In this document: positions 5,787-35,643 of the stretch, in pieces
Position numbering within the stretch: the stretch's first letter is position 1
Layout of the letters: each line of letters begins with the position of its first letter
Source of the DNA: a virus
IMG/VR virus record: IMGVR_UViG_3300037117_000093
Location: 1 to 58,168 of that record
Length of the DNA: 58,168 bases
Direction: 5' to 3' (one strand)
Made by a program: the position numbers and the translations under genes
The notes under the pieces: generated by a model
Seen by the model: the letters and a program-made list of their open reading frames with translations, nothing else
Database searches by the model: none
Told to the model about the DNA's origin: nothing

Positions 5787-7172
5787 TTAAGCGGCAATCT
5801 CCGCCTCCAAAGCCCGGTGCACGTCCACCAGCGCGCCCATCCAATCGCCGGGCGCGCGCTGCGGGAAAAGCCGCCCCGCGTACCACGGGGCCATCGTACC
5901 GTCAGCCGCGCCCCACCATCGCCAGCAGCGCGTGAACGGCGACAGCATCCAGATCGGCTTTCCCATCGCGCCGGCAAGGTGCGCGACCGCAGTGTCAACC
6001 GCGATCACAAGGTCGAGCTGCCTGATGAAGGCCGCGGTATCCGCCCAGTCGGCGAGGCGCGGGGTCAGGTCGCCGATCAGTCCGGCGGCGCCGATGCGGT
6101 CGATATCGCCCTCGGCGTCTTCGCCCTTTTGCAGGCTCCAAAGCCGCACGCCGGGGATCGACGCCATCGGCAGGAACAAGATCAGCGGGATCGAGCGGCG
6201 CAGCGCGGTATCCAGGTTCCATTTCCCGCTCGCCCAGCAGATGCCGATGTTGCGACGCCCTGATCGGAGGCCGTCGAGTTCGATAGGCAAACGCCCGTCA
6301 TCCTGAGCCGGCGCCCGCAGATACGGCGCCGGCCGGATATCCTCCGGCCGCGCATATCCAAGCCAGCGCAGCGCGCCGAACATTGGCGTGTGAAAATCGA
6401 ACCGCGGCGAAGCATCGCCGGCATCGAAGGTTTCGAGCGCGACAACATCAACGCCGGGCCATTCCTGCATCGCCAGCAACCGAACGAGCGCCGCCGGCAC
6501 CGCCATCGTCACGCGAGCGCCGCGCAGAGCAAGCTCGGGCGCGAGCCGCGCCAGCATGATCGCGTCGCCGAAACCTTGCTCCGAATGGAATAGGATTGTC
6601 TTACCGGCGAGGTCTTCGCCCTGCCATTCCGGCCAATGGTGGTCCCATGGCGACAGGTGCGTGAGGCTGTACCATCGCGCCTCGTAGGCCTCAAGCCCGT
6701 CGCCGAGCCGGCCGAGCGCCAGCAGCATGTGCGAGCGATCGGATCGCATCCCCTGCGATCCCGGCATTAGCGCCAGCGCACGGTTGATCGCGTCCAGCGC
6801 CTCGGCGTAGTCGCCTATGCGGTAGCGCAGCAGCGCGAGGTTGTGCCAGGTCACCGGGTCTTCCGGCGCTTCCTCGGCGAGCCGCAGGCATTGCGCCAGC
6901 GCCGCATCGTGCAGGTTCGCTCGCATCATCATGTTGGCGAGGTTGTTGCGCGTCGCGGTCGCGCCCGGCGCCAGACGTACGGCCCGGCCGGTCGCCGCGA
7001 GCGCGGCCGGGAGCATCCCAGCATCGGCGAGCGAGTTGCCGAGGTTCGCCAGCGCCGGCACGAAATCGGGGTCGATTCCCAGCGCCGCCAGGAAGTGCAG
7101 CCGCGCGCCCGAGGCGTCGCCGTCGCGGTGCAGCATCATGCCGGTGGCGTTCAGGTCGGCGGCGCTCGGCAA
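5787..7172 (-). CDS. TPR-repeat glycosyltransferase (GT9/GT41-like)
   Basis: A TTG at 7172 starts a 461-residue product. The N-terminal third has at least three tetratricopeptide repeats ('ALANLGNSLADAGMLPAAL', 'TRNNLANMMMRANLHDAAL', 'TWHNLALLRYRIGDYAEAL'). From about residue 190 a glycosyltransferase-like fold follows, with 'ILFHSEQGFGDAIMLARL', 'GICWASGKWNLD', 'VDTAVAHLAGAMGKPIWMLSP' and the 'W..' cluster near the end. This layout is common in bacterial TPR/heptosyltransferase-like proteins. The phage may use it to glycosylate its own proteins or the host surface. Confidence 0.85.
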   Translation of the reverse strand: MPSAADLNATGMMLHRDGDASGARLHFLAALGIDPDFVPALANLGNSLADAGMLPAALAATGRAVRLAPGATATRNNLANMMMRANLHDAALAQCLRLAEEAPEDPVTWHNLALLRYRIGDYAEALDAINRALALMPGSQGMRSDRSHMLLALGRLGDGLEAYEARWYSLTHLSPWDHHWPEWQGEDLAGKTILFHSEQGFGDAIMLARLAPELALRGARVTMAVPAALVRLLAMQEWPGVDVVALETFDAGDASPRFDFHTPMFGALRWLGYARPEDIRPAPYLRAPAQDDGRLPIELDGLRSGRRNIGICWASGKWNLDTALRRSIPLILFLPMASIPGVRLWSLQKGEDAEGDIDRIGAAGLIGDLTPRLADWADTAAFIRQLDLVIAVDTAVAHLAGAMGKPIWMLSPFTRCWRWWGAADGTMAPWYAGRLFPQRAPGDWMGALVDVHRALEAEIAA

Positions 7173-8448: not shown

Positions 8449-10800
8449 CTACGCCACCCGCGCCTGCGGTTCAAGCTTGCCGATCGGCTTTGCCATGTCG
8501 CCGGTCTTCAGCCATTCCTTGAATGCCGCGACCGACAATTCCGTCACCCCGCCGAAGTGCGCGCGCCCGTCCGCAGGGTCGTCCCAGCCGGCGAGATAAT
8601 CGGCCAGCGCCTCAGCCTCGCTCTTGTAGCCGAGCATGCACTTCGTCTCGTCGAACTGCCCGGCCGTGTGCCCGTGCCGAGTGTTCGCGTGCACTTGGTC
8701 GATGACCCAGACGCGATCAGATTTCGGGTGCACCCCCATGTAGCAATCGACCTGCATCCCGTCGTTGCCGAGCGTGCCGCGGATGTAGCCGTAATGCGCC
8801 GGCATCACGACATGATGGTGCACGCCCTCTGCGTCGGTCACGTGCCGGGTGCGGCCGGAGGCGTTCTCGATCGTCAGGTCGAGTCCGTTCCACGCGATAT
8901 GACCCTTCGGATAGACGCCGCTGTCGATTTGCGCGGGCGACGGATTTGGCAGCGCCTTGTCAGCCTCGCGAGCAATCTGGTTTGCCAGGTGGCCCTTGGC
9001 GACGGCGCCGTGCTTCTTCGCCCATTTACGCCGGCAAATGCCGCACACCAGCCGGCCACCGCAGGTCTTCGGATTGTGCTGCTTTGCCACCGGGTCGCCC
9101 TGATCGTACCAAACGAGACCGGTCCCGGTCGAAACCGTATCCGCCTTCGCGATGAACTTCGCGGCAATGGCCGGCGGCGTGCGCTGGCGCGCTGGCGGCT
9201 TGCCCTTAGCCCCGCCGCCGGCAGGGACTTGCTTGGGGTCACGCCCCCTCGGCGCGCCACCCGGAATCCCAGGAGGCAGCGCGACGGGGGCCGGCGGCGG
9301 AGTTGGTGGATTGAGCACGCTTTCGAGCGTCACGACGATGCCGCCGGCCGCAACCGTCGGCTCGACGCCCTGCCCGTCCGGCAGCGGTTCCTCGCCGAGG
9401 TCGGCCCGGCATTCGTCGCGCGAGCGCAGCCCGGAGTTAAGCTGGATTTGATGCACCTGCGCCTGCTTCAGCGGATCGACCTCGGGCCGCTGGTCCCACG
9501 CCATTTCCACTTCGTCATAGCCGAAGCGGTCCTGGATCAGATGGTCGATGAGGTCTTCCTTGACGAACTTCATCAGGGGCCGCAGCCCCTCTTGCTCGGC
9601 GGCATCCTGCGCCTGGACCGCGGTATCTCGGTTCATCTGGCGGATGAAAGGCGACGGGGGCACGCTGAACACGTAGCAGACCAGCCTGATCCACATCTCA
9701 TCGATCGGCGCGTACATCTCGCCGCCGTTGGCGCTCTTGATCTCAAACGGCTTCATGCCGTCCGGGACGAACTGCACCTTCGATTTTCGGCTGAGGTTGC
9801 CGGAGTTCTGCGCGTCGAAATGCGCCTGGAAAGCCGCAATCTGCCGCACGCCCCACGCAGCCGGCACCGACATGATCATGTCGGGTATCGTGCCGTCTTC
9901 CCAATATTTGACCTCGTAGAAGGTCTTGCGAACGGCAGCCGTCGCTTCGCACAGGATCTGCGCGCAGGGACTGTATCCAAATACGGGTAAATAAGGCAAA
10001 GGCCGCATCGGCTTCCGTATAAGTTCAGTCTCGTCAAGGTTTACGATGGGCAAACCCTTGATGATTTGCTGATAGGCAGGCTGTGGCGCATCTGGTGTTC
10101 TTCCGGCGTCGTCGATCATCGGGAAAAGAGTCGCGGCATCAATTATTTCTGCTGTAATAGGACGCCCCATCCTGTCTCGGTTCCCGACATAAAGCGCTGG
10201 GCAATCCAGGATGAACAGGTCGTCCATCCACATGCGCATCCACTGGTCGAAAGAATGCTTACCGTCCGGCCGTTTCAGGAAATCGGCTATTTCCTTCGTC
10301 CATTTGCTTTCCTGTTTCGGCTTGCCGCGCACCTGGATCGTCCAGGGGATCGTGAGAAGCTGGTCCTTGCGTGTTTCGATGATCGCCGACAGAAAGCCCC
10401 AACTCGACCGCATCGCGCGGAGCATCTGGAAAAACTCGAACTGCTCCGGGATGAAGTTGAGGTTGTAGCCGACCGTGTAATCGAAGTCGCGCGGCCGGGT
10501 GACCGAGGGCGGCCCGTATGGCGCCACCGGCTGCATCGGCCCGAACCAGTTCGCCCCAACATCAACGTCGTGGATCGTGTCGGGCGGCTGCACCGGGCGC
10601 TCTCCGGTGTATTTGCTCTCGCCAGTGGGCTGCTGCTCAGTCGGGTGGCGCAGCGCCTCGGACAGCGCGGAGCGACGGGCGCTATCCGCCTGCCGCTCAG
10701 CCTGCGCGCTGCGCACCGGCGCCATGCGCGCGCCCGGCACCATCGCCGGCGTCTTCTGCATCGTGCGGGTCTGCGGCCCGCGGCGCGACTTGCGGCTCAT
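8449..10800 (-). CDS. Portal protein fused to a zinc ribbon and inorganic-pyrophosphatase-like domain
   Basis: The 783-residue product starts at ATG 10800, which overlaps the previous stop as ATGA. Residues 80 to about 490 are a portal core ('GFLSAIIETRKDQLLTIPW', 'DDLFILDCPALYVGNRD', 'MWIRLVCYVFSVPPSPFI'), which forms the DNA entry ring and binds terminase. A Pro-rich linker follows, then a CGGRLVCGIC zinc-ribbon-like motif (around residue 580) and a C-terminal domain ('MPAHYGYIRGTLGNDGMQVD', 'VWVIDQ', 'AFKEWLKTG') matching the InPase-like domain known from polyvalent phage proteins. The usual portal is about 450-550 residues, so this is a fusion about 250 residues longer. Confidence 0.88.
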   Translation of the reverse strand: MSRKSRRGPQTRTMQKTPAMVPGARMAPVRSAQAERQADSARRSALSEALRHPTEQQPTGESKYTGERPVQPPDTIHDVDVGANWFGPMQPVAPYGPPSVTRPRDFDYTVGYNLNFIPEQFEFFQMLRAMRSSWGFLSAIIETRKDQLLTIPWTIQVRGKPKQESKWTKEIADFLKRPDGKHSFDQWMRMWMDDLFILDCPALYVGNRDRMGRPITAEIIDAATLFPMIDDAGRTPDAPQPAYQQIIKGLPIVNLDETELIRKPMRPLPYLPVFGYSPCAQILCEATAAVRKTFYEVKYWEDGTIPDMIMSVPAAWGVRQIAAFQAHFDAQNSGNLSRKSKVQFVPDGMKPFEIKSANGGEMYAPIDEMWIRLVCYVFSVPPSPFIRQMNRDTAVQAQDAAEQEGLRPLMKFVKEDLIDHLIQDRFGYDEVEMAWDQRPEVDPLKQAQVHQIQLNSGLRSRDECRADLGEEPLPDGQGVEPTVAAGGIVVTLESVLNPPTPPPAPVALPPGIPGGAPRGRDPKQVPAGGGAKGKPPARQRTPPAIAAKFIAKADTVSTGTGLVWYDQGDPVAKQHNPKTCGGRLVCGICRRKWAKKHGAVAKGHLANQIAREADKALPNPSPAQIDSGVYPKGHIAWNGLDLTIENASGRTRHVTDAEGVHHHVVMPAHYGYIRGTLGNDGMQVDCYMGVHPKSDRVWVIDQVHANTRHGHTAGQFDETKCMLGYKSEAEALADYLAGWDDPADGRAHFGGVTELSVAAFKEWLKTGDMAKPIGKLEPQARVA

Positions 10801-11021
10801 GGTTCGGCCTTTTCAACCAGCGCGCTCATAAAGGATATTTTTGTCTGATTGAGCATTGTTGCCCGCGAGAGGCGCTGGAACTTTTCGGCCGCCTCGCTTT
10901 CGTTTCGAGCACGAATGACGGTAAGACCGCTGATCGTCCACGCAAATGCGAAATCGCTATAAAGGCGCGGCTGGTTGATGGCGCGATCGGTGAGGTACCG
11001 GGTGTCATTGGGCGGCAACAC
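10797..11021 (-). CDS. Small protein between the ubiquitin-like protein and portal, unknown
   Basis: The C-terminal part of this frame reads as a natural alpha/beta protein ('LYSDFAFAWTISGLTVIRAR', 'ESEAAEKFQRLSRATM'). A GTG at 11021 behind GGGAG gives 74 residues and overlaps the ubiquitin-like gene by 17 bp; an in-frame ATG at 11156 would add a mostly shadow-like N-terminus. The stop overlaps the portal ATG. The strand-then-helix pattern with an 'ESEAAEK' segment is like small phage proteins with a single beta-alpha-beta unit. The function is unknown. Confidence 0.55.
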   Translation of the reverse strand: MLPPNDTRYLTDRAINQPRLYSDFAFAWTISGLTVIRARNESEAAEKFQRLSRATMLNQTKISFMSALVEKAEP

Positions 11022-11397
11022 GGTGGCGCTCCCAAAGCGATGCTCCTTTGCCCGGGTTGATCTGGGCTGGCGCGATAAAGAAGCGCAACCCACTCCGGAT
11101 TTCGACAACTTCATCGTTGCTGATCTTTCGATCAGACCCGCCGGGCACGACCTCAAACAGGTCGCGATCCGGTCCGATCGGCGTGGGAGGGACGTGGCGA
11201 AGTTCCTCGCCGGTCATTCGCTCTTTGTGGACCGCGTATTCTGTCCTGTCGATCTGGATACGATAGCTCCCTTCATGGTGGTGCTCGTGCTCGTGCTCGT
11301 GCTCGGTGCAATTCCGGCATGTCAGCGCCTCGCCGAACCTGAAATGCGTGCGGCAAACGACGCAAACCCACGGCTGCGCCATCAGGTCATCGTTCAC
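11005..11397 (-). CDS. Zinc-ribbon, His-rich and ubiquitin-like (multi-ubiquitin family) protein
   Basis: A GTG at 11397 (GTGA overlap with the preceding stop) starts a 130-residue protein. Residues 11-30 carry CVVC and CRNC, a zinc-ribbon pair. A strongly acidic/histidine linker (EHEHEHEHHHE) follows. Residues about 44-113 match the bacterial multi-ubiquitin domain pattern: 'YRIQIDRTEYAV', 'MTGEELR', 'RDLFEVVPGGSD', 'ISNDEVVEI', 'GLRFFIAPAQINPG'. Proteins of this family usually occur with E1, E2 or JAB-like partners; none was recognised here. A conjugation tail after the INPG motif (GKGASLWERHRVAAQ) would need processing. Placement between terminase and portal is remarkable. Confidence 0.75.
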   Translation of the reverse strand: MNDDLMAQPWVCVVCRTHFRFGEALTCRNCTEHEHEHEHHHEGSYRIQIDRTEYAVHKERMTGEELRHVPPTPIGPDRDLFEVVPGGSDRKISNDEVVEIRSGLRFFIAPAQINPGKGASLWERHRVAAQ

Positions 11398-11792
11398 AGC
11401 GCCGCCTTCCTCGCCTCGTCGAACGCGCGCCGAACATCGATGTCATCGATCAGCCGCACGATAACAGAGCGCCGGCTTATAAGTGCCTCGTCAGAACGAT
11501 TGCGAACGGCATCGTCAAGAACGTTCCCCAAGACCTCGCGCGCGCGGATCAGCAATTCATCGGTCGAGGGTGCATTGTCGGTCACGATCTCACGCTCCCC
11601 CAAAGCCATCATGACACGAACCGACCGGATGACCGCACCCGCATCGAAGCAAGCCAATAACAGCACGCGCGCAGGAAAGCGCAGCGTCATTTGGCTGTAG
11701 CGGCGCACCACCGTCGCGGAAAGACTGCTCAAATGCCCCAAGCGCGAACGGCACGAGGGCCATCGCGATAGCGATTTCATCAACGGTAGCAT
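11394..11792 (-). CDS. Small gene after terminase, likely frameshifted (real start probably 11817)
   Basis: This frame's C-terminal 98 residues ('MTLRFPARVLLLACFDAGAV...RRAFDEARKAAL') look natural, and its stop overlaps the GTG of the next gene. Its N-terminus does not. A different frame begins at ATG 11817 behind an excellent GAGAGGA site and reads naturally for about 35 residues (MASMPGTVNATVDEIAIAMA...) before turning shadow-like. Joining the two needs a +1 shift near 11705-11740. It may be a programmed shift, a mutation or a sequencing error. The product would be a helical protein of about 140 residues of unknown function. Confidence 0.55.
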   Translation of the reverse strand: MLPLMKSLSRWPSCRSRLGHLSSLSATVVRRYSQMTLRFPARVLLLACFDAGAVIRSVRVMMALGEREIVTDNAPSTDELLIRAREVLGNVLDDAVRNRSDEALISRRSVIVRLIDDIDVRRAFDEARKAAL

Positions 11793-13543
11793 TCACGGTG
11801 CCAGGCATCGACGCCATCAGAAATCCTCTCAGCCCCCAGCGGCTTGCCGCAATGATGACACACTTCCGGCGGCGCCTGCAAATCCCGCAGCGCTATCTCG
11901 TAAAGCTCGGCGCCATCAGCCTCAGCCGCAGGCCGATCCGCCTCAGCGTCCACGTCCTTGTGCCACGGCAATTTCCGAGCTTCCGGCGTCAGCCGCTCCG
12001 GCCGGCTGCGGTCAACCAGCGGCCGGCGAGCCTCCTCGGCGTAGAACTTCATCACCGCCTCGCCGCTGAAGCCGTCCACGGCCCCGGCATAGACCAAGCT
12101 GTCGCCCTTGTCCGGCGAACGCTTCAGCCGGTCCATGATTTCCTCTTTGCTCTCAACTTGCCACCCGCGCGTCGTCAGCTTGCGCCGGGGCGCCGTCAAG
12201 TCGGCGAGCAACTCGCGATCCGGCGGCAACGCCCAATCGTCGCCGTATTCCGGGTCGAGCGCCTCCCTGGCCCGGCAATACCATTCCGCCCGCTTGTTGT
12301 AGAAGCCGACCAGCCCCGAGCGGTCGCGCGCCGTCGATGCGCCGGAGCCGACCATGCCGACCATGTTGAGGCCGCTCATCTCGCCGATATCGACCGGCGA
12401 CGACCCGACACCAATCACGTCGATTTGCACCGGCGTATGCTTGCCCGGCTTTTCCTCGAGCACGGCCTCAATGACGCTCTGCCCATTCGGCGTCAGATGG
12501 CCCGCGATCACCCGTTGCCGAGCGAACCAATAATCGTGCCGACGGGTGATGACCGTGCGGTCCCGCCCGCCGCGCGCCACGTCAACCCCGAGTGCAGACA
12601 GCACCGGCGAGGGCGGATCGTCCGTCCAGCGCTCCATCGCCATCTCAACCCACGCGGTCGGGATGACCTGGTAGGCGTCATCCTCAACCCCGGCCTGAAA
12701 ATCGCCGTCGAGCATCTGCGAGCGGAACGGCTCGTCGAGCGCCTGCAGCGTCGCCTCGTAGCGCGTGCCGCGAAGGTAGATGTTGTCCTTGACGCGGCTC
12801 GGAATGAAGGTCCGCGACTGCGGCAGGATCAGGCGATCTCCGATGCGCATCTGATCAGGACCGTCAACCGCCATATCGCGACCGTTAGCGTCGGTAGCGT
12901 ACCAACGCAACTCGCCGGGCTCGGCCGGGTGCGGGTGTTTCTTGTCCAGCCACGGGCCGAAGTAATCAAGCAACCACATACCGACCGCGCTCGTCGGCGG
13001 GTTGAACGCAATGACGGCGCGCGTCCGCTGCCCGCGAAGCGTCGTGCGCAACCACGCCAGGATGAACAGCACGACGGCGCGCGGAAAATGCTCGCCCTGG
13101 TCAAAGCCAATGAAATCGTGCGGGCGCCCTTGGAGCTTAAGCATGTCCGCGTCGTGGTGCACGCTGATGAATTCCAGCACGCGCGCGTCAGAGAAGCGCC
13201 AGCGGCCTCCCGTGCTGTCGGCGCGCCACGTTGCGCCGAGCGGTAGAAATATCTCGCGCGCTCGGTCGATCAGCGCCGAGAACTCGTTGCCGGCTCGGCG
13301 ATAGATAACGCTGCGCTGATGCTGTTGATGGGCGATGCCGAGCAAAGCGTCGGACTTACCACCCCCGAGCGCGCCACCCAGGCCGAGGATATCCGCAGCG
13401 CTATTGTAGGCGAGTTCCTGCGGCCCTGGCTGCGGCGTCCAGCGGTCCGGCTCCTTCAGCTCCGCTTCGATCCTCGTCAGCAGCAAGCGTAGCTCTGAGC
13501 GAGGTAGCGAATTCAGCGAGCTGCTCTTTGGTAAGTCGCTCAA
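11780..13543 (-). CDS. Terminase large subunit (ATPase-nuclease) with C-terminal zinc ribbon
   Basis: The 587-residue product packages DNA into the prohead. The ATPase part shows Walker A 'GGALGGGKSDA' (about residues 56-66) and Walker B 'FIGFDQGEHF' (about 144-153); the nuclease part starts at 'ALGVDVARGGRDRT' (around 320) with later acidic residues. The last 25 residues hold CHHC...WHREC, a zinc-ribbon not usual for terminases. The start used is a TTG at 13543, which overlaps the small subunit gene by 143 bp; a second in-frame TTG at 13486 is possible. Confidence 0.9.
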   Translation of the reverse strand: MSDLPKSSSLNSLPRSELRLLLTRIEAELKEPDRWTPQPGPQELAYNSAADILGLGGALGGGKSDALLGIAHQQHQRSVIYRRAGNEFSALIDRAREIFLPLGATWRADSTGGRWRFSDARVLEFISVHHDADMLKLQGRPHDFIGFDQGEHFPRAVVLFILAWLRTTLRGQRTRAVIAFNPPTSAVGMWLLDYFGPWLDKKHPHPAEPGELRWYATDANGRDMAVDGPDQMRIGDRLILPQSRTFIPSRVKDNIYLRGTRYEATLQALDEPFRSQMLDGDFQAGVEDDAYQVIPTAWVEMAMERWTDDPPSPVLSALGVDVARGGRDRTVITRRHDYWFARQRVIAGHLTPNGQSVIEAVLEEKPGKHTPVQIDVIGVGSSPVDIGEMSGLNMVGMVGSGASTARDRSGLVGFYNKRAEWYCRAREALDPEYGDDWALPPDRELLADLTAPRRKLTTRGWQVESKEEIMDRLKRSPDKGDSLVYAGAVDGFSGEAVMKFYAEEARRPLVDRSRPERLTPEARKLPWHKDVDAEADRPAAEADGAELYEIALRDLQAPPEVCHHCGKPLGAERISDGVDAWHRECYR

Positions 13544-27567: not shown

Positions 27568-28697
27568 TTGCTGCGATTCCCCAAAAGCTGATCCGCAAAA
27601 TCCCCAAACCCCTCGCTCGGGAGTATCGCCTCTGCGGCTATCCCGTGCCGGCGCCACCATCCGGCCGCGTATGCGGCCACTGCCTCGCCGACGAAGCCTC
27701 TATCGCCAAATATCCAGAGGCCGCGCACATCGGGCGGTATCCAGATCGACGGCGCGCGCTCGTCGAACCACCGCGCGGTGACGCCCTGCGGCGGCACGTC
27801 CGGCGCAATCCAGTGCCGGCGATCGCCGACGCCCTCAGACCAATGCGCCGGGTAGCCGAGCCGCGACAGGCCGCATAGGGACCAGACCGGTATGCGGTAG
27901 AGGATCGATGCCGCGACCGCGCTCTCGACGCCTTCCGCCAACCCGAGGATCGGCCCAGCCGGTGCCAAGCGCACGGCGCCATCTAGCATCGCGCCCAGCG
28001 TCTTCTTCCTTATATTGAGTTTCGGCCGGGCGTCCGGCGCTGAGCGCGCCAAGCTGCGGATGCTCGCCAGCGCCTCGCCGCTGAACATGCGCTGATGGTT
28101 CCGTGCCCAGCCGGCCGGGTCGCGTTCGTAATCCTCGATTGACAGGCACCAAATTCGCTGCACCGCCGTCACGCGGCCGTCAGATGCGGTGATCGGCGCG
28201 ACCATCGCAGGGAGCGGCCTGCCGACCTCATGGCAGTAGAGCGCGGCATGCGACAGCAGCGCCGGATGATCCGAACCGAGGCCGCGGCTCCAAAGATACA
28301 GGCGCGCCGCCGTGCCGTCCGACACCGGGCCGCACTCGCGTAGGATAACGTTAATGCGGGCCGCCTTCCGGGAAGGATCGTCGTAATGACGTTCTCTAGG
28401 CGTTCTTTCCAAGTTTTGCCTTTGAAGAGGCAGCGGCGGCAGATCGATCAGCCAGCGCACGGCGCCGGCGAAGTCCAGATGCTCGGCGCGCTGCACAAGG
28501 TCGATCACGTCGCCATAACCGCAGCCGGCGAAGCAATGCCAGTGGTCATCCTTGATCCCGAAGCTCGGCTTGCGATCCTCGTGGAAGATGCATGGGCCGG
28601 TCAGCCAAGCCCCGGCCCGCTTGAGCGGCGTGTATCGCGCGGCAATGTCCGCGATCGGGACGGCTTTGGCCCGCGCGAAATCGGCGTCAGGGATCAT
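27564..28697 (-). CDS. DNA primase with CHC2 zinc finger and Toprim domain
   Basis: The 377-residue product (ATG 28697) has the zinc finger 'GPCIFHEDRKPSFGIKDDHW' ending 'HCFAGCGYGDVIDLV' (about 34-68) and a Toprim-like region with 'PILGLAEGVESAVAAS' (around 250) and 'GLWIFGDRGFVGEAV'. This is the phage DnaG-type primase lacking a helicase domain; the RepA-like ATPase downstream could supply it. It is coupled to the C5 methyltransferase and helicase genes. Confidence 0.85.
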   Translation of the reverse strand: MIPDADFARAKAVPIADIAARYTPLKRAGAWLTGPCIFHEDRKPSFGIKDDHWHCFAGCGYGDVIDLVQRAEHLDFAGAVRWLIDLPPLPLQRQNLERTPRERHYDDPSRKAARINVILRECGPVSDGTAARLYLWSRGLGSDHPALLSHAALYCHEVGRPLPAMVAPITASDGRVTAVQRIWCLSIEDYERDPAGWARNHQRMFSGEALASIRSLARSAPDARPKLNIRKKTLGAMLDGAVRLAPAGPILGLAEGVESAVAASILYRIPVWSLCGLSRLGYPAHWSEGVGDRRHWIAPDVPPQGVTARWFDERAPSIWIPPDVRGLWIFGDRGFVGEAVAAYAAGWWRRHGIAAEAILPSEGFGDFADQLLGNRSK

Positions 28698-30649
28698 GGC
28701 CTGTAGACCGCCGCGATATGCCGGCTCAACGCCTCCGGGATTTTCGCGATCATTGCGCTCGCGGCTTTGCGGCTGTCCGATTTTTTGATGCCCTCGTGCT
28801 CGGCGGAATTCGTCAGATGGCGGGTGTGCGGTGCGCCATCTCGAATGTGGGGAATATGTCCGGTCGTTTTGACCCTATCGCGGTAGCGTTGCGCGGCCGT
28901 CACGTTGAAGCCCTTTGCCTTATAGCCCGGTTTGTCATGCCCGCTGAAATTAAGCCCCGCAACCTTCACCGACGCCGATTGAAACGATCGGCCGCTGCCG
29001 TCGAACCGGAAGCCAGCAACCTTGTGCCCGTGAAAATTCGTGACACCATCAGGGCGATGCGCAATTCCTGCTTTCATTACTCGTCCGGTCGTGAACGGCA
29101 TCAGCGCCGGAACATCGCCCCAAAGGTGGTAGCTACCGAAGTTCCACCGCGAGCGGCCCACCCAAGGAATCGCCCCGCGGACGTTTTCGACGACCATAGG
29201 GATGTGCCGCCCGGCGGCGAGCGAGGCTTGCGCCTGGATACGAAAGCAGGCATCGAACAGGCGGGTGAGGTCGGTGAGCATCTGCCCGCTCGTGTCGGCG
29301 CGGATCGCCGCCGCCTTGGCCTTCGCCAGCGACCACGGCATCGCCATCCACGAGTAGGCTTGGCAATTATGGACGACCACGCCATCAGCGACGTAGCTGT
29401 TGTCCTCCTCAACTTCGAGGTTCCAGACTTCAGCGGCGGGTTGGCCTTCGGCGATGTGTCGGACGCGCCCCCACTGCATCCCATAATCGCACTCGACCAA
29501 GCGATTATGATCCGCGCCAGGCGTCCATCGCGTGTCCCAACTGTCCCGCTGGTTTACCGTGCGACCCTCAATTTCATAGGTCGGCGGCCGTGGTTGATGA
29601 TGCACCGTAGAGACGGACCCAAGAGAGGCGGCAAGGAACCGCGTTCCGATAGCCAACCCCTTGCTGACCGTAGTCGTCTTGATGATCTGTGTGTGCCCAT
29701 TAAGGACTGCGTAGCCATCTGCCGAGACATATCCGTCAAGCAACGCCTGACGGCGGCTCCGCTCCATACCGAACACCCACGCCGGCCACGATTTCCCGGC
29801 AGCGCCGAGGCCGAAGTGGTGGGATATCCATTCCGCCAAGGAATTGCTCGCCGCCGTGAAGCGCGCCGTTGTTCGCTCGACAGAACGTCGCCAATGCAAT
29901 TCGCCGGGTTTGGCCCGAGAACCGGCCCGTGGTGCCACGGCGGCGAGCCGGCCATCAAGATCATCAGCCTCGTCGTGGGCGCAGCAGATGAGCACCTCGT
30001 CACCGCCTCGCGTCTCTGGCCTTCGCCGCAGCCATCCGTCGCCGACCCATCGTCCCACCATCCACCAGAATTCGGGTGTGTCGGGAAGATCGTTCGGCAG
30101 CGGCGGGATCGGCAACTCGTCAAAGGCGACGGGGCTGGCCCAATGGCTTCCTGCGCTTTCGGCCATCGGAATCCATTGGGGTTCCTCTAGGTGTTTGGGA
30201 TGGTAGGTCCAACTTACTCGGCAGGAACCGCTGTCGCGCCGCGCGTAAACCGGATGCTCAGCGGTGCCCTCAAGCGTCGCCCCATAGCCCGATGCAATTA
30301 CCGTCGCTGCAAAGGTGCTCCCCGTCCGCAGAACTCGACGCCAGCGGTTCTGATGGGTCAGGACAAGATCGCCTACAACGACATCGGGAATGGGGAGCAG
30401 CCCGCGATCAGTCAAAATCAGCGTGTCAGCGACAAAGCACGGCGGCGAGGCGACGATCAGCGCCGCATCGCGGAACTGCGAACCGTGCAGCGTCAGCACG
30501 TCCTGGATTACAAGCTGCGCCGGGTAGCGGTGCTCGCCGTACTGGTGCCGCTCGATATCGAAGCCGATGACATCGTAGCCCTCGGCGAGGAATCCTTCCG
30601 ACCATCCACCCAACCCGCAAAAAAGGTCGATCATCAGCGGGTTGGTCAT
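28694..30649 (-). CDS. C5-cytosine DNA methyltransferase interrupted by an intein
   Basis: The host protein has motif I 'MIDLFCGLGGWSEGF' (residues 6-20), motif IV 'VASPPC', motif VI 'MVVENVRG' and a C-terminal region ending 'SRHIAAVYRP'. An insert of about 358 residues (71-428) sits inside the catalytic Pro-Cys; removing it restores 'ASPPCQAYSW', giving a 293-residue enzyme. The +1 residue after the intein is the catalytic Cys, so activity depends on splicing. C5 methylation would protect phage DNA or alter expression. Confidence 0.9.
   Translation of the reverse strand: MTNPLMIDLFCGLGGWSEGFLAEGYDVIGFDIERHQYGEHRYPAQLVIQDVLTLHGSQFRDAALIVASPPCFVADTLILTDRGLLPIPDVVVGDLVLTHQNRWRRVLRTGSTFAATVIASGYGATLEGTAEHPVYARRDSGSCRVSWTYHPKHLEEPQWIPMAESAGSHWASPVAFDELPIPPLPNDLPDTPEFWWMVGRWVGDGWLRRRPETRGGDEVLICCAHDEADDLDGRLAAVAPRAGSRAKPGELHWRRSVERTTARFTAASNSLAEWISHHFGLGAAGKSWPAWVFGMERSRRQALLDGYVSADGYAVLNGHTQIIKTTTVSKGLAIGTRFLAASLGSVSTVHHQPRPPTYEIEGRTVNQRDSWDTRWTPGADHNRLVECDYGMQWGRVRHIAEGQPAAEVWNLEVEEDNSYVADGVVVHNCQAYSWMAMPWSLAKAKAAAIRADTSGQMLTDLTRLFDACFRIQAQASLAAGRHIPMVVENVRGAIPWVGRSRWNFGSYHLWGDVPALMPFTTGRVMKAGIAHRPDGVTNFHGHKVAGFRFDGSGRSFQSASVKVAGLNFSGHDKPGYKAKGFNVTAAQRYRDRVKTTGHIPHIRDGAPHTRHLTNSAEHEGIKKSDSRKAASAMIAKIPEALSRHIAAVYRP
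29366..30439 (-). mobile_element. Intein with LAGLIDADG homing-endonuclease domain
   Basis: The insert begins CFVADTLILTDRGL (N-terminal splicing block A), has 'GTAEHPVYA' (block B, T..H), two LAGLIDADG-like motifs ('MVGRWVGDGW', 'LLDGYVSADGYAV') and ends 'YVADGVVVHN' before Cys +1 (block G). All parts for protein splicing (Cys 1, block B His, terminal His-Asn, Cys +1) are visible. The nuclease motifs suggest it can still home. Confidence 0.9.
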
Positions 30650-34661: not shown

Positions 34662-34718
34662 ATGCCAAACAGCTTCAACGTGATGGTGAACGGCAAAGAA
34701 GTGGAGATCAGGCAATGA
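34662..34718 (+). CDS. 18-residue leader ORF of early operon 2
   Basis: ATG 34662 follows a very strong GGGAGGA site; the peptide is MPNSFNVMVNGKEVEIRQ and its stop overlaps the next ATG. It looks like a short beta-hairpin or a leader that couples translation of the next gene. Confidence 0.45.
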   Translation: MPNSFNVMVNGKEVEIRQ

Positions 34719-34936
34719 ACTACCCAAAAGATTTGAAAATTACCGAGACCAACCGGAAGAAATATGCGGCGCTGACTTCTGTCGGCGGCTGGCTGGACGT
34801 GCACGCCGAGGGGCTGAGCCTGCCGGCGCTGACTTTCGTCGGCGGCTCGCTGTACGTGCGCGCCGAGTTTAGCGCACCGCTCTTGCGGCTATACAAGGGC
34901 GGCGAAGATCGGCGCGGCTACTTGCCGAGGACGTGA
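34715..34936 (+). CDS. Short leucine-rich-repeat-like protein
   Basis: The 73-residue product has about two units of the type 'LTSVGGWLDVHAEGLSLPAL' and 'TFVGGSLYVRAE', related to the repeats of the 35047 gene but diverged. It lacks a capping domain and may be a shortened relative that seeded or decayed from the larger gene. Confidence 0.6.
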   Translation: MNYPKDLKITETNRKKYAALTSVGGWLDVHAEGLSLPALTFVGGSLYVRAEFSAPLLRLYKGGEDRRGYLPRT

Positions 34937-34964
34937 TTGCGGCTGAGTCGAAGGAGATCGAGCG

Positions 34965-35030
34965 ATGATCAGCAAGTTGCGGACTTACGCCGAGCGCAGA
35001 CGGCGATCGGGAAGTTGGTATCAGAGATAG
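34965..35030 (+). CDS. 21-residue basic micro-ORF
   Basis: ATG 34965 follows AAGGAGATCG with good spacing; the peptide (MISKLRTYAERRRRSGSWYQ...) is strongly basic. Expression is plausible from the ribosome binding site alone. Confidence 0.3.
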   Translation: MISKLRTYAERRRRSGSWYQR

Positions 35031-35046
35031 AGAGAGATATCGGGCG

Positions 35047-35643
35047 ATGAAAAATTACGTGATAGTGGACGGCAAGCGGATGAGCGTTGCTAAATTTCAG
35101 GCAGCGAAGGGCCTCAGCGTCGGCGGCTCGCTCTACCTCAGCGGCACGGCGATCACGGCGCTGCCCGAGGGGCTGAGCGTCGGCGGCTGGCTCGACCTCA
35201 GCGGCACGGCGATCACGGCGCTGCCCGAGGGGCTGAGCGTCGGCGGCTTGCTCTACCTCAGCGGCACGGCGATCACGGCGCTGCCCGAGGGGCTGAGCGT
35301 CGGCGGCTGGCTCGACCTCAGCGGCACGGCGATCACGGCGCTCCCCGAGGGGCTGAGCGTCGGCGGCTTGCTCAACCTCAGCGGCACGGCGATCACGGCG
35401 CTGCCCGAGGGGCTGAGCGTCGGCGGCTCGCTCGACCTCAGCGGCACGGCGATCACGAACGTCTTTTATGGTGCCACCGACCGGCGACGCTATCGGTTCT
35501 CCGGCGCGCGGTTGGCGAATGGTTGGCGCGTCTTAGCCGGCTGCCGGAATTTCTCGCCGGATGAGGCGCGGAGGCATTGGGCTGGCAATGCGGAATGCCT
35601 GGCGCTCGCCGAGGCAGTGATCGCAGCGGAGACCGGACGATGA
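35047..35643 (+). CDS. 60-bp-repeat protein with leucine-rich-repeat-like solenoid
   Basis: The 198-residue product has a short N-terminal cap (MKNYVIVDGKRMSVAKFQAA), six nearly identical 20-residue units of the form L-S-V-G-G-x-L-x-L-S-G-T-A-I-T-A-L-P-E-G (about residues 23-137), and a C-terminal cap rich in aromatic residues ('RYRFSGARLANGWRVLAGCR'). Only two positions vary between units (Ser/Trp/Leu and Tyr/Asp/Asn), which would line one face. It likely forms a binding solenoid. The target is unknown. Confidence 0.75.
   Translation: MKNYVIVDGKRMSVAKFQAAKGLSVGGSLYLSGTAITALPEGLSVGGWLDLSGTAITALPEGLSVGGLLYLSGTAITALPEGLSVGGWLDLSGTAITALPEGLSVGGLLNLSGTAITALPEGLSVGGSLDLSGTAITNVFYGATDRRRYRFSGARLANGWRVLAGCRNFSPDEARRHWAGNAECLALAEAVIAAETGR
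35111..35460 (+). repeat. Six tandem 60-bp repeats
   Basis: Units are almost identical at DNA level. Differences concentrate in one codon (TCG, TGG or TTG) and another two codons later (TAC, GAC or AAC). Units 2-3 and 4-5 form a 120-bp higher-order pair. One silent change (CTG to CTC) marks the start of unit 5. Confidence 0.9.

Follow-up and report, generated by a model that had tools for sequence, protein, structure and literature searches.

A ubiquitin-like gene in a phage packaging operon

The viral contig analyzed here (58,168 bases; referred to as the window) reads as one tailed phage. A gene for a ubiquitin-like protein (Ubl) lies in it, flanked by the genes for the terminase large subunit (TerL) and the portal protein, with the following genes and domains at the locus:

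11780..13543, minus strand: TerL (PHROG 979, E 1.3e-33)
11394..11792, minus strand: upstream ORF of no assigned function, with its likely coding part from ~11612
11005..11397, minus strand: 130-aa Ubl of the Bub type (Multi_ubiq, PF14452), an orphan whose N-terminus carries a CxxC/CxxC segment
11308..11364, minus strand: putative zinc ribbon, residues 12-30 (CxxC-x11-CxxC; from the sequence and a low-confidence model)
11050..11265, minus strand: beta-grasp Ubl domain, residues 45-116, with INPG at its end (Pfam, AlphaFold2 model, Foldseek)
11008..11049, minus strand: C-terminal tail past the INPG glycine, 14 residues (sequence compared with bacterial relatives)
8449..10800, minus strand: portal protein with a C-terminal InPase (PF18823) domain (InPase E 7e-40)

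TerL is 43-47% identical to TerL proteins of the Rauchvirus type and similar, and by portal and tail tip the closest named phages are the Brevundimonas phages Polewnik and Strzyga. RecT, an exonuclease, helicases, a tail tip and an endolysin are encoded elsewhere in the contig. The upstream ORF shares 4 bases with the start codon of the Ubl gene in a stop/start overlap. In the same region (11394-11817, minus strand), a 75-aa ORF after terL and an overlapping 132-aa ORF resemble halves of one gene, apparently split by a frameshift near 11690 that may be natural or a sequencing error. The InPase domain is also known in phage minor head and polyvalent proteins, and the portal of a related contig (L015, see below) has a similar end.

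Further genes of the phage deserve mention in their own right. The 651-aa ORF at 28694-30649 (minus strand) begins like a cytosine DNA methyltransferase (DLFCGLGGWSEGF) and contains Hint and LAGLIDADG domains, and is probably, judging by these domains, an intein-containing methyltransferase. Among the structural genes, a TPR protein (5787-7172, minus strand) has a weak glycosyltransferase-9 (heptosyltransferase-like) C-terminus, and two ORFs at 34715-35643 (plus strand) carry short leucine-rich-repeat-like repeats of the type VGGWLDLSGTAITALP.

The Ubl ORF starts with GTG and extends exactly from 11005 to 11397 on the minus strand. Its product has only four cysteines, arranged as two CxxC motifs (C12/C15 and C27/C30) and followed by a His/Glu-rich linker (EHEHEHEHHHEG). 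The N-terminal 44 residues were modeled with low confidence and gave no significant match in family searches; their CxxC-x11-CxxC pattern points to a putative zinc ribbon. The domain that follows matched Multi_ubiq over residues 45-109 (E 1.1e-8; 35.6 bits, above the Pfam cut-off of 24.5), a cut-off that PF14452 exceeded in none of 14 control genomes in the same Pfam search. A profile of 38 related bacterial Ubl sequences detected the ORF (E 1e-38), with all other ORFs of the window at E 0.8 or more. AlphaFold2 predicted the domain with a pLDDT of ~94-98 and a beta-beta-alpha-beta strand order, which is that of a beta-grasp. In a Foldseek search of the PDB, the top eight matches to the model were all bacterial multi-ubiquitin proteins, and rank 12 was a BubA domain from a structure in complex with BubCD; the identity to these structural matches was 13-21%. 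INPG occupies residues 113-116 and 14 further residues follow it. Thus, sequence and model together confirm a protein in which a predicted multi-ubiquitin-family beta-grasp Ubl is joined to a zinc-ribbon-like motif. An earlier, sequence-only reading of this DNA had described the cysteine motifs and linker, the family, the INPG end before a short tail and the place between terminase and portal, and had proposed structure prediction against the multi-ubiquitin family as a check; these observations all hold.

Capture from a Bub-type operon

The closest relatives of the domain are bacterial. For the domain, tblastn against plasmids gave identities of 63-67% to "multiubiquitin domain-containing proteins" from Methylocystis, Rhizobium and Phenylobacterium, and the best identity among bacterial genome loci is 71%. 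The bacterial operons have the order Ubl, E2 (Prok-E2_E), ThiF E1, DUF6527 protein and ClpP-like serine protease, and their ThiF E1 shows a weak JAB match at its N-terminus. Since the best PDB sequence matches of the operon E1 and E2 are BubCD (E 1.1e-27) and BubB (E 1.7e-9) of Citrobacter, these operons are identified as Bub-type. We collected 49 bacterial loci: 34 from a scan of 84,980 genomes, 10 from two order-wide searches and 5 from plasmids. E2 and E1 adjoin the Ubl gene in 49/49 of them, leaving no locus without partners.

Several additional features of these operons were seen. A Fic-family gene often lies just upstream (L017-L020, L028-L033, L039, L040, L045 and L047), accompanied in annotated plasmids by a CopG/RHH-type gene, and a ClpP-like SDH serine protease is the fifth gene in many operons of this subtype. 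At L025, L029, L031, L036, L037 and L056, the BubA-like Ubl is extended at its N-terminus by a long, charged, coiled-coil-like stretch (e.g., EKELEAFKERQLRELREFEERQ); the presence of such stretches at six loci indicates that N-terminal extensions of a mono-Ubl are recurrent.

When profiles of the Bub E1 (BubCD), E2, DUF6527 and ClpP proteins were run against the 1069 six-frame ORFs of the window, nothing significant was found. By sequence kinship, the phage protein belongs with the BubA-type modifiers, and the window lacks a complete Bub system. In the Ubl tree the phage sequence falls inside a mixed clade (support 83/96), in which the resolution is too weak for naming a donor. Close Ubls were found in 1/398 and 2/398 genomes of two candidate host orders, and any Ubl match at E <=0.001 in 4/398 and 9/398, both samples including genomes that had been used as centres. 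Bub of this subtype is thus rare in the two candidate host orders sampled.

A remnant of a partner is nevertheless present. The sequence-only reading had found no recognizable partner, which stands for intact genes, but the N-terminus of an E2 is preserved directly downstream, in one of the two small genes that had been left unassigned:

10797..11021, minus strand: chimeric 74-aa gene in which the N-terminus of a Bub E2 (Prok-E2_E) is joined in frame to a native phage gene
10974..11021, minus strand: E2 scar (VLPPNDTRYLTDRAIN), comprising the start codon and about the first 16 residues and placed where the operons have their E2 gene
10797..10964, minus strand: native phage part of the chimera, which resembles L057:7956-8177

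In the bacterial operons, at most a few dozen bases separate the Ubl stop from the start of E2, and the E2 proteins start like MLPPxDxxYLxxRA. The chimera starts with GTG at 11021, 28 bases past the last INPG codon. We scored this start with a position-specific matrix anchored on 32 distinct bacterial E2 starts, taking the whole window and 15 other phage loci as nulls. The scar scored 27.7 bits, compared to 5.3 bits for the runner-up among 85,536 window positions and 9.8 bits for the best of 289,006 positions in the other phage loci, and true E2 starts, left out one by one, scored 12.5-40.7. Since the scar had been spotted before testing, its significance lies in the window-wide and other-phage nulls and in its syntenic position rather than in a blind search. 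The whole-domain E2 profile misses it (E 7.5) because just ~16 residues are left, and the anchored matrix was used instead. A match of the longer ORF at 10797-11156 to the bacterial loci was rejected as homology of the downstream gene, being partly an out-of-frame reading of Ubl DNA; within that ORF, only the part that begins with the GTG at 11021 is the E2 start.

Past residue 16, the chimera no longer resembles E2. Its residues 20-64 match a gene of 73 aa on another phage contig (L057:7956-8177) at 69% identity; this gene has no E2 start and a different N-terminus, and the DNA match to the window begins at 10964. The E2 start on our contig and the native gene without one on L057 indicate that the downstream gene is an in-frame fusion. 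This fixes the direction of events: a fragment of a Bub operon was inserted beside a native phage gene. From these alignments and scores, we conclude that the E2 start fused to the phage gene is the scar of a capture, and that the BubA-like modifier was taken from a bacterial Bub-type conjugation operon.

Distribution in phages and sequence conservation

The gene is accessory in the phage. In the contig with the nearest portal (L015; 48% identity), the corresponding space is filled by a methyltransferase-like gene and, besides it, two small ORFs, and in Brevundimonas phage Polewnik terL and the portal gene overlap by 8 bases with nothing between them. Multi_ubiq (PF14452) was found neither in the portal-related L015 record nor in 13 TerL-related viral records, and the profile A2 had no match in the records of L057 and L015. 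Searches of IMG/VR with peptide patterns, from the single sequence and from alignment A1, revealed no close relatives. Among GenBank phages, the Ubl protein had no relatives at E 0.01 and just partial, weak matches up to E 10, and neither distant multi-ubiquitin proteins (Acinetobacter type) nor a Bub E2 were detected. A single phage copy of the gene was found. Different genes, or none, at the locus in related phages mean that the Ubl gene is not a conserved packaging factor; its absence there speaks against a core packaging role and leaves its identity as a Ubl unaffected.

We also compared the phage domain with the bacterial set column by column. It keeps 25/26 of the columns conserved at 95% and 36/37 of those conserved at 80%, the sole change being an isoleucine for the threonine of FFTAP. 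In the same test, individual bacterial Ubls kept 0.89 to 1.0 of the 95% columns and 0.81 to 1.0 of the 80% columns. Retention in the phage thus falls within the bacterial range, and a decaying passenger is not expected to appear so intact. The two ends of the protein have changed. Cysteine pairs are absent from the N-termini of all bacterial Ubl relatives inspected, which argues that the phage lineage acquired residues 1-44 or exchanged another N-terminus for them, and 14 residues follow INPG in the phage protein versus 1 to 10 in the bacterial relatives. An apparent sharing of the zinc ribbon with L030 and L050 was discarded, since a His-rich overlap had misled the comparison and the full sequences have no cysteine motif.

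Function of the captured modifier and comparison with known systems

An orphan Ubl that lacks attaching enzymes and bears a scar of theft suggests a protein that jams or hijacks a host Bub system. As an orphan modifier it can act only via the enzymes of others or by binding alone. The kept Ubl positions and INPG point to contact with E1 and E2, and the added N-terminus and longer tail point to a decoy or a redirected tag. We consider a counter-defence mimic that engages the host Bub E1 and E2, most likely as a decoy, to be the best explanation, with a probability of a little under one half. A phage ancestor took up a Bub stretch comprising the Ubl and about the first 16 codons of E2; the remainder of the operon is missing, and the E2 start now runs into the native phage gene. 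In a Bub-positive host, the phage Ubl may bind E1 and E2 in place of the host Ubl, and possibly JAB or DUF6527 processing sites as well, and such a decoy would occupy or poison the Bub enzymes. Its position in the late packaging operon would supply the protein during virion assembly, the step at which Bil, a related system, reportedly interferes. Against the mimic stand the facts that its binding to Bub enzymes is something we infer, that Bub is rare in the candidate host orders and that there is a single phage copy. Activation would also require that the 14-residue tail first be cut off, unless the protein acts as an inhibitor.

The sequence-only reading had offered three functions without choosing among them: tagging or protecting a capsid or host protein, acting as a decoy for host ubiquitin-like defence systems, or serving as a portal or terminase cofactor. 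Its interpretation is partly supported, in that the decoy gains from the Bub kinship, the E2 scar, the kept positions and the C-terminal glycine, whereas the cofactor loses ground with the absence of the gene from the locus in L015 and Polewnik. A broader version of the latter is that the phage put the captured fold to a new use unconnected with host Bub, as a small protein such as a zinc-ribbon adaptor or a terminase, portal or chaperone cofactor. The position between terL and portal, the overlapping reading frames, the phage-specific CxxC/CxxC N-terminus and the rarity of Bub in candidate hosts would all suit such re-use. We nonetheless find it rather unlikely, as the gene is missing at the same locus in related phages, and retention of 36/37 columns and INPG exceeds what a beta-grasp scaffold needs, distant Ubls holding the fold at 13-21% identity. 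It is less probable that the phage diverts host Bub so that its own Ubl is attached to proteins of the host or the virion, the CxxC domain serving for targeting or recognition. An intact INPG C-terminus, the kept conserved positions and an added N-terminal domain seen in no bacterial relative would be expected in that case, but a host protease must remove 14 residues after the glycine; this may be feasible by analogy with the bacterial relatives, which carry 1 to 10.

The scar itself is a recombination accident, and together with the single known phage copy it could signify a recent, functionless passenger (a moron or relic) brought in by illegitimate recombination. This is improbable given that the gene has diverged by ~30% from every known relative and yet kept its conserved positions, and that it stands open and in frame within a compact operon and has an N-terminal domain of its own. 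An assembly artefact joining phage and bacterial DNA would be conceivable for a virus record assembled from environmental sequence. It is hard to reconcile with an in-frame fusion to a native phage gene, reading-frame overlaps on both sides, a nearest bacterial locus at 71% identity and the lack of Bub sequence past about codon 16 of E2, and we regard it as very improbable indeed.

If the modifier-mimic reading is true, it implies that Bub acts on phages. With its scar and kept positions, the orphan modifier hints independently, from evolution, at encounters between Bub and phages, and its small protein may be of use as a reagent for blocking or tracing the Bub pathway. Capture of a host Ubl by a virus would also parallel viral subversion of the ubiquitin and ISG15 systems in animals. 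With a probability somewhat below one half, this may be the first phage inhibitor or hijacker of bacterial ubiquitin-like conjugation that mimics the modifier itself: a Ubl kept while the enzymes were discarded, joined to a metal-binding module and made at virion assembly.

A beta-grasp Ubl is also encoded by phages in the tail-assembly proteins of the lambda gpI type. The orphan Ubl differs from these in family and locus, and its model had no match at E <=0.001 in a library of viral structures.

There is a resemblance between Bub operons and the eukaryotic ubiquitin cascade, and a role in immunity is suspected for them. As cited in PMC13373217 from Ye et al. (2026) and Gong et al. (2025), they comprise the BubA Ubl, the BubB E2, BubCD (JAB-E1) and a DUF6527 protein. 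They are counted among putative immune pathways and adjoin DNA-damage-controlled immune regulators, and protection against phage by Bub is so far undemonstrated (PMC13373217). The phage Ubl belongs to the same family, with up to 71% identity and an INPG-type C-terminus. Unlike Bub, the phage has no E1, E2, JAB or DUF6527 protein, its E2 being cut to ~16 residues, and its Ubl has a CxxC/CxxC N-terminus, a longer tail and a location in a phage packaging operon. The Bil (bacterial ISG15-like) antiphage system interferes with phage assembly, according to the title of Hor et al. (2024; cited in PMC13373217). Bil likewise uses a Ubl of the Multi_ubiq fold, and a Methylobacterium Ubl-BilA structure is among the matches to the phage Ubl; however, the sequence similarity is just distant, and Bil, a bacterial defence, has its full set of enzymes. 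Like phage mimics and decoys of host defence components, our phage captured one component of a host system. In the literature searched we found no phage mimic based on the Ubl of a bacterial conjugation system.
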